Positions 3,060 through 15,665 of a stretch of 15,665 nucleotides of DNA are shown here, piece after piece. Below the pieces are notes generated by a model. It saw nothing but the letters and a program-made list of their open reading frames with translations. It did no database searches and was not told where the DNA came from. Numbering within the stretch: the first letter of the stretch is position 1; each line of letters begins with the position of its first letter. The position numbers were made by a program, and so were the translations under genes. The DNA is taken from contig JAUWYR010000051.1 of assembly GCA_030615745.1 (NCBI GenBank), positions 1 through 15,665 on the forward strand. Direction: 5' to 3'. Source of the DNA: Candidatus Zixiibacteriota bacterium (GTDB lineage: Bacteria; Zixibacteria; MSB-5A5; SM23-73-2).

Positions 3060-3575
3060 ATGGCTGAACCTGAAAAAGAAAAAACTAAAAAAGCAAGCGC
3101 TAAGAAAGAAGAGGGACAAAAAAAACAAGAGGCAAAGAAAGAAAAAAAACAAGAGGTAAAAACCCAGGTTGCAGAAGAAAAGCCAACCTCTTTTTCATCT
3201 GAGATCGACCAGATTATCTCCACTATCGAGAACATGACAGTTATGGAGCTTTCACAGCTCTCCAAGGCATTGCAGGAGAAATTTGGGGTTTCAGCTGCTG
3301 TTCCAGTTGCCCAAGCTGCCTCACCTGCTGGTGGAGTGGCAAAGGAGGCTGCCACAGAGGAGAAAAGCGAATTTAATGTGATTCTTTCGAGTGTGGGTGA
3401 TAAAAAGATTCAGGTGATAAAAGTGGTCAGAGAAATAACTAGTTTGGGTTTGAAGGAAGCCAAAGATCTGGTCGATTCTGCACCAAAACCTGTGAAAGAA
3501 GGGATACCAAAAGAGGAGGCTGAACAAATCAGAGCTAAACTCCAGGAGGTGGGAGCTACTGTCGAGCTTAAATAA
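3060..3575 (+). CDS. rplL: 50S ribosomal protein L7/L12 with a charged N-terminal extension
   Basis: This encodes the stalk protein that recruits and activates translational GTPases. It is 171 residues, against roughly 120-130 in most bacteria. Residues 1-46 are an added low-complexity segment ([20 protein letters not shown] and more); 24 of the first 41 residues are Lys or Glu. The ordinary protein then follows: the N-terminal dimerisation domain from about residue 47 ([20 protein letters not shown]), the Ala-rich hinge ([16 protein letters not shown]) and the C-terminal factor-binding domain from about 104 ([20 protein letters not shown], then [19 protein letters not shown]). The start at 3060 is supported by GGAGG at 3046-3050 with 9-nt spacing. 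I see no alternative ATG, GTG or TTG start near residue 47, so the extension is part of the gene. Confidence 0.96.
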
Positions 3576-3659: not shown

Positions 3660-6600
3660 TTGTCAAAAGTCAAAACCATTGAGAGAATATCATTTTCTAA
3701 ATTGAAAGAGGTAGCAGAGCTTCCCTGTTTCTTGGATATTCAGAGGGAGTCTTTTAAAAATTTTCTACAACTGGAAAAAGACCCTGAAAAAAGGGAGAAC
3801 AAAGGGCTTCAAGCAATTTTCAATGAGGTTTTCCCTGTTACCGATGTTCATGAGAACTACTCTTTGGAGTTCGTGAAATATACGGTGGGCAAACCTCGCT
3901 ATACTCTTCAGGAGTGTCGTGAAAGAAATATGACCTATGGAGCTCCACTTAAAGCCACTTTGAGGCTGGTGATAAGAGAGACGAAGGAGAAAAGGAAAGA
4001 GGTCAAGGATATCATCGAGCAGGATGTTTTTTTAGGAGAGCTTCCTTTAATGACTCCCGCAGGAACTTTTATCGTCAATGGTGCAGAGAGGGTAATTGTA
4101 AGCCAGCTTCATCGTTCCCCAGGGGTCTTTTTCGATGAAGAGATTCACCCTAACGGTAAAAGACTTTACAGCGCTCGAATAATTCCATACCGCGGTTCCT
4201 GGATGGTATTCAATTTAGATGTCAATGACATTATGTACGTGCACATCGATACCAGGAGAAAACTTCTTGCAACTATCTTTTTGAGAACTTTAGGTTATTC
4301 CACTGATGAAGAGATTATAAAACTATTTTATGAGGTGGAAGACTTTCAACTTTCTGGAAAAAATCCATCCAAACTTTCAGGAAAGATCTGTGCTTCACCA
4401 GTAATTGATCCGAAAACTGGCGAGATCGTTTTATCTTGTGGAGAAACCATAACTGAGCCTTTCATAGAGCAACTAAAAAGTCTTAAAATACGAAAGATCA
4501 AGGTTATCTCCTCTGATCTGACTCATGATCCGAAAGTGATAATCAACACCTTGCAGAAGGATTCTACAAAGTCTTTACAGGACGCTCTGTTCAAAATCTA
4601 CACCCTTTTGAGACCAGGGGAACCCCCTTCCCCGGAGATGGCCAAGGGTCTTTTGGAGAGACTATTTTTTACCTCAAAAAGATATGACTTAGGTGAAGTG
4701 GGTCGCCACAGAATAAATGAACGCCTTTCACTTGAGGTACCTCTGGAAACTACCACCCTGACTAACCAGGATTTTCTGAGCATAACAAAATACTTATTGA
4801 AATTGAGGAATGGAGAAGGAACAGTAGATGATATAGACCATCTCGGCAACAGGAGAGTACGAACAGTTGGTGAGCTTTTGTCAACTCAATTTTTGATCGG
4901 TCTTTCCCGGATGTCAAGAACTATGAGGGAAAGGATGAGCCTAAAAAATACCGAGGCTATCACCCCTCATGATCTGGTGAATGCCCGAACTGTCTCCGCT
5001 GTGATACAGACTTTCTTCGGTTCTTCCCAGCTCTCTCAGTTTATGGATCAGACTAATCCCTTAGCAGAGCTAACTCATAAAAGGAGATTATCAGCTTTGG
5101 GACCTGGTGGTCTAACCCGGGAAAGAGCTGGTTTTGAGGTTAGAGATGTGCACCATACTCACTACGGGAGGATGTGCCCTATCGAGACGCCGGAGGGTCC
5201 TAATATAGGGTTGATCGCTTCCCTTTCCACCTACGCCAGGATAAATAAGTATGGATTTTTGGAAACACCTTATCTTAAGGTGGTAAAGGGAAAGGTTACC
5301 AACCAGATTGAGTATCTTTCAGCAGATGTTGAGGATAAATATCATATAGCTCAAGCTAATGAGCCTCTGGATAAAGATAGAAGGTTTTTGAATTCAATGA
5401 TTAAGGCAAGGGTCAAAGGTGATTTTCCTTTAGTCCCACCAGAAAAGATTGAGTATATGGATGTTTCACCTAAACAACTGGTCTCAGTAGCTGCTGCTCT
5501 GATTCCATTTCTCGAACATGATGACGCTAACAGAGCTTTGATGGGCTCTAATATGCAGAGACAAGCAGTCCCTCTTCTGACCTCGGAAGCTCCCATCATC
5601 GGAACTGGAATGGAAAAAAAAGCGGCCTTGGATACCAAAACTTTAGTAATTGCCAAAAGAAGTGGAGTGGTCAAAAGCGTAACTGCTGATAAGATAGTGA
5701 TTAAACCTACTGATGAGGGTGATGATTCATTTGATTTCGTGGGAGATGATGAGTATAGACTGGAGAAATTCAGACGTTCAAATCAGGACACCTGTACAAA
5801 TCAGAGATCTTTGGTGGAAGTTGGGGACAGAGTTAAGCTGGGAGATTGTGTAGCTGATGGAGCTGCCACCGATAGAGGGGAGTTAGCTTTGGGAGCCAAT
5901 GTATTGGTCGCCTTCATGCCTTGGAGAGGTCATAATTTTGAGGATGCTATTATAGTAAGTGAGAAGCTTGTTGCTGAAGACCGATATACCTCGATCCATA
6001 TTGAGGAATTTGAGCTTCAGGTAAGGGAGACCAAAAGAGGCGCTGAGGAGATAACCAGAGAGATTCCCAATGTATCTGAGGAGGCTTTAGCTAATTTAGA
6101 TGAAAAAGGTATTATAAGAGTAGGAGCTGAGGTTGAGGCAGATGATATTTTGGTGGGCAAGGTTACCCCTAAGGGTGAGTCGGAGCTTTCTCCGGAGGAA
6201 AGACTTTTAAGGGCTATTTTTGGCGAGAAGGCTGGAGATATTAGGGATGCTTCCCTGAAAGCACCCCCAGGAATGAAAGGAATCGTGATCGATACCAAGG
6301 TATTTTCTCGTAAGGAGCGAACTGAGGAATCAAAAAAAGCGGAGAGAAATGAGATTGCCCGTCTTAAAAGAGTCCTTCAGAAAAAGATGGAGAGTTTGAA
6401 AAAACTTAGAGATAGTAGGTTGAAAAAGCTTTTGAAAAACCAGGTCGCGAACACTATAAGGAAAATATCGGATGACTCGGTGGTTTTCAGAACCGGCTAT
6501 AAGTTTAAGGTGGATTCCTTAGATGGTATAGAAGTCGATGATCTTTTTGTTGAGAATGGATTTGTTCAGAGCCCCAAAGTTAATAGTAAAATAGAGAAGC

Positions 6601-12710: not shown

Positions 12711-12827
12711 ATGTTTGAAAAAGGATTGAAATTTTTTAAATTGTCTCCACTTAAAGTGGACAAAAATTGTTATCGTGGGAGTGGATTTTTTTATGCCGAG
12801 AGATTTCCCTTTACAGAAAATCCGTAA
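12711..12827 (+). CDS. Possible 38-codon ORF with strong SD, overlapping the fusA start
   Basis: AAAGGAGGGG at 12687-12696 is one of the strongest Shine-Dalgarno matches in the window and begins 2 nt after the rpsG stop. The next ATG, at 12711 (14-nt spacing, longer than ideal), opens a 38-residue frame starting [20 protein letters not shown] and ending RFPFTENP. Its stop is at 12825-12827, 35 nt inside fusA in another frame. It might be a leader peptide or coupling cistron, or the strong SD may have another use. I recognise no homology. The gap between rpsG and fusA holds no other gene. Confidence 0.25.
12746..12760 (+). promoter_or_regulatory. Small hairpin upstream of fusA
   Basis: TCCAC (12746-12750) and GTGGA (12756-12760) form a 5-bp stem with a TTAAA loop, extendable by TGTC/CA pairing. 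The same GTGGA recurs at 12781-12785, overlapping the purine-rich GGGAGTGGA in front of the fusA ATG. TCCAC could therefore pair either locally or with the fusA ribosome binding region. This is a short match and tentative. Confidence 0.25.
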
Positions 12828-14874
12828 TATAGGTTTGATGGCTCATATTGATGCAGGGAAGACAACCTCTACCGAGAGAATCCTTTTCTATACCGGGAAA
12901 ACCCATAGGATGGGTGAGGTAGATGATGGGGCTGCGGTTATGGACTGGATGGATCAGGAGAAGGAGAGAGGTATAACCATAACCTCGGCTGCCACCACTT
13001 GTTTCTGGAACGGACACCGGATAAATATCATCGATACTCCTGGACATGTCGATTTCACTGCTGAGGTGGAAAGATCATTAAGGGTATTGGATGGTGCCAT
13101 TATGATTTTCTGCGCAGTTGGTGGGGTTGAGCCACAATCTGAGACTGTGTGGAGACAGGCAGATAGATATAGGGTGCCGCGTATTGCCTTTGTTAATAAG
13201 ATGGACCGGGTAGGAGCTGACTTTGAGAATGTGGTGAAGATGATAAGGGAACGTTTGGACGCTGTGGTAGTTCCGATTCAACTCCCTGTTGGTTCAGGTG
13301 AGATGTTCACAGGTATTATAGATCTTCTAAGTATGACCTTCAGGGTCTATAATGAGGAGACTCTTGGCGCAACTTACGATGAGCACCCGGTACCGAAAGA
13401 TCTGGTTAAAATATGTAAGATTAAAAGGGAAAAGCTTTTAGAGTCTCTTTCTGATTATGATGATCTTTTAGCAGACAAGTTCCTCAACGAGAAGCCGATC
13501 CATACGGAAGAGATAAAAAAGGTGTTGCGGAGGGCAACCATAGAGACGAAGGTGGTCCCGGTTTTGTGTGGTGCGGCTATCAGGAACAAAGGTGTGCAGA
13601 AACTTCTGGATGCAGTGGTGGATTTCTTACCTTCGCCTAAAGATCTACCAGAGGTGAAAGGGTTTAATCCATATACTGGTAAGGAGGAGAAAAGAGCCGT
13701 TTCTGATTCAGAAGGTCTAACCGCATTGGTGTTCAAAATAGTAAGCGATTCCTATGTGGGAAGATTAAGCTATATCAGAGTCTATTCAGGGATGCTCAGA
13801 ACTGGAACAGTTGTTTTGAATGCAAATTCCAAAAAAAAGGAAAGGATCGGAAGAATTCTGCAGATACATGCTAATAAAAGGGATGAAATCTCAGAGGTCT
13901 ATGCCGGTGATATCGCGGCTTGTGTTGGGTTAAAATGGACTTTTACCGGGGATACACTGTCCGATTTAAAAAAGCCGGTAGTTTTAGAGATGATGAGATT
14001 TCCTGAGCCAGTTATATTTATTGCTATTGAACCCAAAAGCAAAGCTGACCAGGATAAATTGTTTGATGCTTTGAAAAAAATAGCATATGAGGACCCCACC
14101 TTTAAGATTAAAGTGGATGAGGAGACTGGTCAAACTATAATATCTGGCATGGGGGAGCTTCATCTTGAGGTATTAGTGGAGAGGATGATGCGGGAGTTTG
14201 GAGTTTCTGCTAATGTGGGCAAACCGCACGTTGCTTATAAAGAGACCATAACTGTTCCTGTTGAGTCCGAGGGAAAATTCATTCGGCAGAGTGGAGGGAA
14301 AGGACAATATGGTTTGGTGCGACTAAAAGTTGAGCCTTTACCCAAGGGACAAAGATTTTTATTCGAGAATAAAATAGAGGGTAGAATTATTCCCAAAGAG
14401 TTTTTTCCAGCGATCCAACGGGGGGTAAAAGAGGCTATGGAAAACGGCGCTCTGGCCGGTTATCCGGTAATCGATATCAAAGTTACTCTTTACGATGGGT
14501 CATATCATGAGGAAGATTCAACTGAACTTGCTTTTAGAATTGCTGCCTCGATGGCATTGCAGGATGGGCTGAGAAGGGGAGAACCTAAGCTTTTGGAGCC
14601 TTTGATGAAGGCGGAGGTGGTTGTTCCAGAGGAATATATGGGTGATGTAATAGGAGATCTGAATGCGAGGAGAGGAAAAATTTTGGGTGTTAATCCAAGG
14701 CCGAACGCTAAGGCAATAGATGCTTTAGTTCCCCTCTCTGAAATGTTTGGTTATGCTACTGATTTGAGAAGTCTCTCTCAGGGAAGGGCTATATATACAA
14801 TGGAATTTTCCCATTACGAGAAGGTTCCGGAGACTATTTCTGAAAAAATTATTGCAAGGATTAGAGGATACTAA
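12793..14874 (+). CDS. fusA: Elongation factor G
   Basis: This encodes a 693-residue EF-G, the GTPase that drives tRNA-mRNA translocation and works with the ribosome recycling factor. GTPase motifs are all present: G1 AHIDAGKT (17-24), the switch-I RGITI with T62, G3 DTPGH (81-85) and G4 NKMD (135-138). Later domains show [20 protein letters not shown], the domain IV segment [20 protein letters not shown], and the domain V ending [21 protein letters not shown] choose ATG 12793 ([20 protein letters not shown]) over the in-frame GTGs at 12775 and 12781, because those overlap the GGGAG at 12777-12781 that serves as Shine-Dalgarno. Length and motifs fit the canonical str-operon EF-G. Confidence 0.98.
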
Positions 14875-14889
14875 AGGTAAGGGGGCTAA

Positions 14890-15477
14890 ATGAGTTCATT
14901 AACTCACGATGAAATAGCGAAGAAAATTAGAGATAAGTTAGATAAAAAATTGAAAAATTACGAAACTAAAGTCAAAAAGAATTTATTGTATAACATTCCT
15001 ATCGACAGTAAAGGAGAAATTGAGTTAGACCTCAAAGAGGATGGAGAGGCAAAAAGAGGCCATAATGCATTTCAACAAGATATACTTGTATACGAAGAGA
15101 AAGAAGCCCGTTCTGATATGTGCGAAGTGAAAGTGATTCCAAGAGTGGCAATGGAATTGAGTATGAATAAAGTTTCGACTCATACTGCGATACAATATTC
15201 TAAAAAGGCAAGTATGTTGAAATCTATTTATCCATATCTCCGATACATATTAGTTATTTTTGGTAAAAGCGAAATAGATAAAAGGGTATTAAAACACGGA
15301 GAAGATTTTGATGCTATTGTGACTTTAAAAAATGATAGAAATGGTTGGCAAACACTGGCTGAAATAGTGAGGAGGCAGATAAGAATTTCTGAGGAGATTA
15401 GGAAAGCTTTATTTGGGAGAGATAGACATATAGCGATTTTTGAGAAAAAACTAAGCGTTAAAAAGATGGAGGAATAA
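14890..15477 (+). CDS. Unknown protein between fusA and tuf, possibly PD-(D/E)XK nuclease-like
   Basis: This 195-residue protein is not a normal member of the str operon, and I do not recognise a named family. The N-terminal 30 residues are Lys-rich and probably helical. The centre reads [14 protein letters not shown] (D64), then [18 protein letters not shown] (E79-V80-K81 and E89-L90-S91), then [20 protein letters not shown]. An Asp on one strand followed by a strand bearing E-x-K, next to a Lys-rich helix, resembles the core of PD-(D/E)XK restriction-type nucleases. However, the second Glu strand has Ser where the catalytic Lys would be, so activity is uncertain. Hand-counted G+C is about 33% (14941-15480) against about 44% in the end of fusA, suggesting transfer. 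A purine-rich AAGGTAAGGGGG precedes the ATG, and tuf starts 4 nt after the stop. Confidence 0.85.
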
Positions 15478-15481
15478 AATT

Positions 15482-15665
15482 ATGGCCAAGGCTAAATTTA
15501 TCAGGACTAAGCCGCATATAAACGTAGGGACTATCGGTCATGTGGATCATGGGAAGACCACCTTGACTGCGGCGATAACGATGATTTTATCGAGGAGGGG
15601 ATTAGCTCAGGCGAAGACGTTTGAGGAGATAGACAATGCTCCGGAGGAGAAGGCTCGTGGATTGA
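15482..15665 (+). CDS. tuf: Elongation factor Tu, N-terminal fragment (3' end outside window)
   Basis: This is the first 61 codons of a second tuf copy, running off the window. It begins [20 protein letters not shown] and contains the P-loop GHVDHGKTT (19-27) and the switch-I region [15 protein letters not shown], all diagnostic of EF-Tu. The Shine-Dalgarno GGAGG is at 15468-15472 with 9-nt spacing and lies inside the final codons (Met-Glu-Glu-stop) of the preceding unknown gene, so translation of the two may be coupled. Position after fusA is the classical tufA location, while the copy at the left edge, before rpmG-secE, corresponds to the tufB-like location. Confidence 0.98.

Follow-up and report, generated by a model that had tools for sequence, protein, structure and literature searches.

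A Stand-Alone Gene with a Predicted Restriction-Endonuclease-like Fold between fusA and tuf in a Candidatus Zixiibacteriota Genome

The window analyzed here comprises positions 1 to 15,665 of contig JAUWYR010000051.1 (assembly GCA_030615745.1), from a Candidatus Zixiibacteriota bacterium. It carries, in order, tuf, rpmG, tRNA-Trp, secE, nusG, rplKAJL, rpoBC, rpsL, rpsG, fusA, an additional open reading frame (ORF) and tuf, which, leaving aside the ORF, is the usual order of this cluster. The ORF, here termed P0001, occupies positions 14890–15477 of the + strand, from an ATG at 14890 to a TAA ending at 15477, with 195 codons for a protein of 195 residues. Upstream of it is fusA, encoding EF-G (12775–14874, +; in the ORF list the longest frame runs from 12775, and the likely start is the ATG at 12793), whose stop codon (14872–14874) is 15 bp away. 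Downstream, after only 4 bp, the tuf gene for EF-Tu starts with an ATG at 15482, and its 5′ part (15482–15665, +) is cut by the contig end. The ORF list and the sequence therefore agree with an earlier note on this DNA, which had placed a 195-residue ORF between fusA and tuf in the same orientation. The sequence AGGGGG at 14880–14885 (+), 4 nt before the ATG, is the likely ribosome-binding site of P0001, and comparison with the equivalent junctions of three related genomes (G001, G002 and G006) identifies GGAGG at 15468–15472 (+), within the last codons of P0001, as the Shine-Dalgarno sequence of tuf. Elsewhere in the window, the bL12 protein encoded by rplL (3060–3575) has about 45 additional N-terminal residues, rich in Lys and Glu, ahead of the usual start; such an extension is also present in G001, and a shorter one in G002.

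Because fusA and tuf are adjacent, with no gene between them, in the sister species G001 and in four other relatives (G002, G006, G010 and G117), the insertion is lineage specific. The gap between the two genes ranges from 22 to about 107 bp in these genomes, being about 31 bp in G001, similarly short in G002, G006 and G117, and about 107 bp in G010. G001 was the sole other genome of the genus that was searched, and its fusA protein is 83% identical to that of the window over its length. A search of 59 relatives gave no match to P0001, and a profile search of 132 genomes of the phylum found the family gene in just two, the second copy (G117, matched at 9.1e-24) lying directly behind glyS and not in the str operon; no other genome among the 132 had the family gene between fusA and tuf. 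The earlier note had pointed out that a phylum-wide presence at this position would argue against recent insertion, and the comparison went the other way: insertion of the gene is well supported.

The genome is split over 74 contigs, and this one begins and ends within tuf, of which there is more than one copy, so that the fusA-ORF-tuf junction might be suspected of being an assembly artefact. However, the spacing of 15 bp and 4 bp on the two sides of the ORF, and the 9 nt between the tuf Shine-Dalgarno sequence and its ATG, the same as in the sister species, would hardly result from a chance misjoin, and we give this explanation very little credence. In Gammaproteobacteria and Bacilli, this cluster is known to have taken up small groups of genes (tusDCB, bfd-bfr, nrdHEF and ilv-leu; PMC8046335); the examples considered here from that article serve metabolism or tRNA modification and occupy other positions of the cluster.

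The base composition of P0001 (32.7% GC, 29% GC3) is lower in GC than that of fusA (43.4% and 41.5%), and high AT content is seen in secE and rplJ as well. In codon adaptation (CAI 0.737) P0001 falls within the range of its neighbors (0.72–0.78). The gene is thus a lineage-specific acquisition that is either old enough, or similar enough, to match the codon use of its host. Since no terminator was found, and no promoter of its own was seen for P0001 within the str operon, transcription of the operon probably continues through it, and its translation is likely to be coupled to that of tuf. The tuf ribosome-binding site is kept inside the last codons of P0001, and the insertion would thus have been tolerated.

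An AlphaFold2 model of P0001, made with 11 homologues, had a pLDDT of 81.6 and a pTM of 0.80, the final 16 residues being the only ones with values under 50, and an order of elements of H-E-E-E-E-H-E-H-E-H. Foldseek returned three significant matches in the PDB, all to BbvCI (E values from 1.5e-5 to 2e-5). Using VIA-align, the model scored Z = 10.7 against BbvCI and BsaWI, and Z = 9–10.6 against PspGI, BstEII, NucC, Can2 and others, although unrelated receiver domains reached Z = 8–9, so that the structural margin alone is moderate. Because a canonical relative, modeled separately, gave the same top structural matches, and because the invariant Asp and Glu-x-Lys of the family fit the fold, the prediction of a PD-(D/E)XK (restriction-endonuclease-like) fold for P0001 is nevertheless firm. 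The earlier note had proposed this fold, and its suggestion was upheld by the model and by both structural searches. Structure prediction, one of the checks that it had named, placed restriction enzymes at the top; a Pfam profile scan of P0001 gave no match above the cut-off. A sequence search of the PDB with P0001 yielded designed ankyrins only (E = 0.1). EndoMS/NucS ranked low among the structural matches (Z about 8), and a role in mismatch repair was set aside.

Among solved structures, the closest to the P0001 model is BbvCI. The BbvCI subunits and the SgrAI/NgoMIV-like group (PDB: 6m9g, 6mag, 4zsf and 3bm3) share the same PD-(D/E)XK core with the model (Foldseek E = 1.5e-5; VIA-align Z = 10.7, rmsd 4.1 over 150 residues), and have the order Asp ... 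Glu-x-Lys in common with canonical members of the P0001 family. However, P0001 is only about 14% identical to them and some 70–90 residues shorter. The N-terminal nuclease domain of type I restriction enzymes (HSDR_N/HSDR_N_2, PF13588) belongs to the same superfamily, but P0001 itself does not match it, and its family, unlike the type I HSDR enzymes, has no helicase or translocase part. The CRISPR ancillary and CBASS nucleases Can2/Card1, VC1899 and NucC also resemble P0001 in fold (Z = 9–10.6), but no CARF or cyclic-nucleotide-binding part was seen in P0001, and the window contains neither CRISPR nor CBASS genes.

P0001 belongs to a small family of stand-alone nucleases, with homology extending over the whole domain. 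We collected 18 homologues from at least seven phyla, carried on chromosomes, on a plasmid and in prophage- or transposon-like neighborhoods. A first homologue was a gene on plasmid pHRM2a of Desulforapulum autotrophicum (tblastn, 7e-13), where there are two copies. A single-sequence scan of genome contigs with P0001 gave no match, and it was a profile built with the pHRM2a homologue that made it possible to detect further members, in Pseudomonadota, Planctomycetota, Desulfobacterota, Acidobacteriota, Bacillota, Atribacterota and Chloroflexota. Genome samples of the same phyla added a few more, at a rate of no more than 2% in each sample, every one of which includes a seed genome. No homologues were found in viral contigs or phage records; matches to Synechococcus phages (E = 5) were weak and not significant. 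Since clear homologues exist elsewhere and the predicted fold is confident, P0001 is a genuine gene rather than an open frame that arose by chance.

The core of the family in the 19-row alignment reads YETD(I/L)L ... PRV(V/I)(I/V)E-x-K ... THD-AITYSQKA--HK-V(H/Y)PYLRYG ... GR-(F)-(R)HGAHFDF, giving the signature YETD...PRVVIExK...THDAITYSQKA..HK..HPYLRYG...RHGAHFDF. P0001 groups with a subfamily marked by RG(H/N)xAFQxD or similar (L017, L041, L051, L052 and L054), its nearest homologue being L052 (41% identity over 118 residues). In the tree these two fall together on very long branches, that of P0001 being the longest, and its exact placement is unsure. Scans of P0001 against Pfam, NCBIfam, PADLOC and PHROG gave no match above the curated cut-offs (hits to ArsA_ATPase, with E = 0.023, and to DUF4777 were sub-threshold noise), and the same libraries gave none for the domain itself in its relatives, although a few members were weakly similar to the HSDR_N_2 profile, the best (E = 0.012) being below the cut-off. 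The family is rare, moves horizontally, and is named by none of the curated libraries searched. In pairs close enough for counting, dN/dS was low, at about 0.16 (L005/L006) and about 0.09 (L004/L053), indicating that canonical members are maintained and under purifying selection. One copy, L009, has an in-frame stop, so decay of copies does occur.

The earlier note had recognized an Asp/E-x-K layout in the central region of the protein, but here the alignments led to a different result. The triplet E79-V-K81 (15124–15132, +), which looks like an E-x-K motif, is a decoy not conserved in the family. The real motif is formed by the motif II aspartate, D64 (codon 15079–15081, +), and by motif III at E89-L90-S91 (15154–15162, +). 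Both acidic residues, D64 and E89, are present in all 19 rows, as expected of a PD-(D/E)XK protein. By contrast, position 91, where an active nuclease should have the lysine of (D/E)-x-K, is Lys in 18/18 homologues and Ser in P0001, which therefore does not have the canonical active site intact. Cleavage by BbvCI is abolished when the equivalent lysine of its E-x-K is mutated (PMC6326814). In a leave-one-out analysis, P0001 departed from the family at 4 of 17 otherwise invariant columns (E6H, K91S, G120I and F142A), whereas every other member departed at none or one. The simplest reading of this pattern is that the nuclease activity of P0001 is lost or strongly weakened.

Some PD-(D/E)XK families are, however, believed to function with no lysine in motif III (PMC1913061). 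In DUF506, DUF790 and DUF1626, including variants with (D/E)-x-S, migration of a lysine or arginine to the motif IV helix has been proposed, and a related correlated change is described for YhgA-like proteins (PMC1913061). Like these, P0001 has a motif III without Lys and a basic residue in the helix that follows. This helix, residues 97–113 (15178–15228, +), contains the invariant H98, Y103, K106 and K111, together with K105, which is new in P0001 (other members have Q, T, A, Y or F there); K94, in the preceding loop, was also gained by P0001 alone. K105 could therefore be a migrated lysine, and P0001 might still be active, with the lysine moved from position 91 to K105 (or to K94), in which case it would act, at high expression, as an orphan and perhaps modification-dependent restriction enzyme. 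The intact, codon-adapted frame would fit this possibility. In the families just mentioned the change is common to many members, whereas here P0001 alone has it and all 18 relatives keep the Lys. Against activity, the further substitutions at E6, G120 and F142 look more like a general relaxation than like one compensated swap. We consider an active P0001 unlikely, although it is the most serious of the alternatives.

An orphan restriction enzyme also raises the question of how the host DNA would be protected. There is no methyltransferase in the window, which ends inside tuf, and so P0001 does not have alongside it the cognate methyltransferase of a type II restriction-modification system, a further difference from BbvCI. 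The earlier note had likewise seen none nearby. The genome does contain several N6/N4 and N6 methyltransferase genes outside the window, which could protect against an active P0001, and P0001 might have a distant partner among them. A search of the genome for C5 methyltransferases detected none, and this, as well as the lack of any methyltransferase next to P0001, counts against activity. Solitary restriction enzyme genes are known; many are fragments, some have their methyltransferase at a distance, and an enzyme with no methyltransferase would be expected to be toxic (PMC3488263). As a separate observation, contigs C9, C17, C30, C55 and C61 of this same genome (G000) carry many frames of the N6/N4 methyltransferase type, some broken by stops, so that restriction-modification is abundant and partly decayed in it.

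The neighborhoods of the homologues are suggestive of a link to defense and mobile regions, although they were surveyed without a matched control. Several members are accompanied by restriction-modification genes, i.e., a C5 methyltransferase (L008), a piece of a ThaI-family endonuclease and an N6/N4 methyltransferase (L013), HsdM and a PDDEXK_4 nuclease in a type I cluster (L014) and, by eye, an HsdM-like frame (L051). The member in L014 (5803–6834) carries DUF7662 (E = 3.6e-11) as a fused domain at its C-terminus. Others are next to mobile-element genes, with a resolvase on plasmid pHRM2a (L003), a serine recombinase (L011), a phage integrase (L012), a terminase (L054) and, again by eye, transposase frames (L009 and L015), while the member in L053 adjoins a TIR-domain protein. 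A third arrangement is that of a conserved gene directly upstream on the same strand, i.e., xylulokinase, 15 bp away, in two planctomycetes (L005 and L006), glyS in G117 (L017), and folD with a ParE-like toxin gene in L052. The glyS gene in L017 (99–1418) is in two frames, of 203 and 210 residues, and is either broken or mis-sequenced. In L052 the ParE-like toxin gene (4184–4489) ends a few bases before the family gene, and no antitoxin gene was noticed adjacent to it.

The tight spacing behind same-strand conserved genes such as fusA, xylulokinase and glyS might be taken to mean that these are free-standing homing-type endonucleases, which insert beside conserved genes by cutting alleles that lack the gene. 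PD-(D/E)XK enzymes do form one recognized class of homing endonuclease (PMC6083498). However, the insertion sites are unrelated to one another, several members are in restriction-modification clusters or in plasmid or prophage-like regions, no intron or intein was seen, phages and viral contigs yielded no homologue, and P0001 lacks the catalytic lysine. Enzymes of the I-Ssp6803I type were absent among the structural matches listed. A homing origin is therefore improbable in our view.

Because canonical members have an intact D...E-x-K, are under purifying selection, and in many genomes have restriction-modification or mobile-element neighbors, they are most likely DNA-cutting nucleases of restriction type, directed against phages or mobile elements. 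Their fold, active site, patchy spread and neighbors would most likely reflect a role in defense or in competition between mobile elements. We found no bench-tested member of the family.

For P0001 itself, the balance of evidence tips modestly toward a horizontally acquired, orphan restriction-type nuclease gene that was inserted between fusA and tuf and is now a disarmed passenger. A gene of this rare mobile family would have entered the fusA-tuf gap, of about 30 bp, after the split from the sister species. With K91 replaced by Ser and three other otherwise invariant residues lost, the protein is most likely inactive, or nearly so, as a nuclease, and may persist as a tolerated passenger, perhaps one that binds DNA. 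An active orphan nuclease in a highly expressed operon would be dangerous, and we hypothesize that loss of the lysine allowed the gene to be tolerated by disarming it. Against a disarmed passenger, the intact frame and adapted codons suggest that the protein is probably still made, and maybe selected.

Another alternative is that P0001 was recruited for a translation-linked job, e.g., nucleic-acid binding or feedback on EF-G and EF-Tu, and is kept by co-expression. Its frame is intact, very high expression is to be expected of the operon that contains it, the tuf ribosome-binding site is inside the gene, and the catalytic lysine was lost while most other conserved residues were kept. However, only one genome has the gene at fusA-tuf, the sister species lives without it, and P0001 carries no sequence sign of a role in translation; such recruitment seems to us very doubtful. 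It is a similarly long shot that a former defense gene now encodes a highly expressed, non-cutting nucleic-acid-binding protein of translation or nucleoid biology. If it did, a protein with a restriction-enzyme fold but without its cutting residue would share a transcript with EF-G and EF-Tu and be coupled to tuf in translation.

On the favored reading of a disarmed passenger, a mobile restriction-type nuclease gene can enter and remain in an operon that is among the most conserved known, with the catalytic lysine as the apparent cost; both the location of the gene and the missing lysine are mildly surprising. The analysis also brings together a small and scattered family of stand-alone PD-(D/E)XK proteins, whose canonical members are candidates for a simple, single-gene system of defense or DNA processing. 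Two further arrangements were seen among them. On pHRM2a (L003, about 6700–16375) there are two tandem copies of a block of about 5.7 kb, in which the nuclease-family gene is accompanied by a resolvase, a MerR regulator and a toxin pair of the RelE/ParE type. In L041 (9368–11550, in G503) the member follows a DUF4238 gene and shares a few bases with the end of an upstream gene that belongs to no known family, so that the three may form a single unit.
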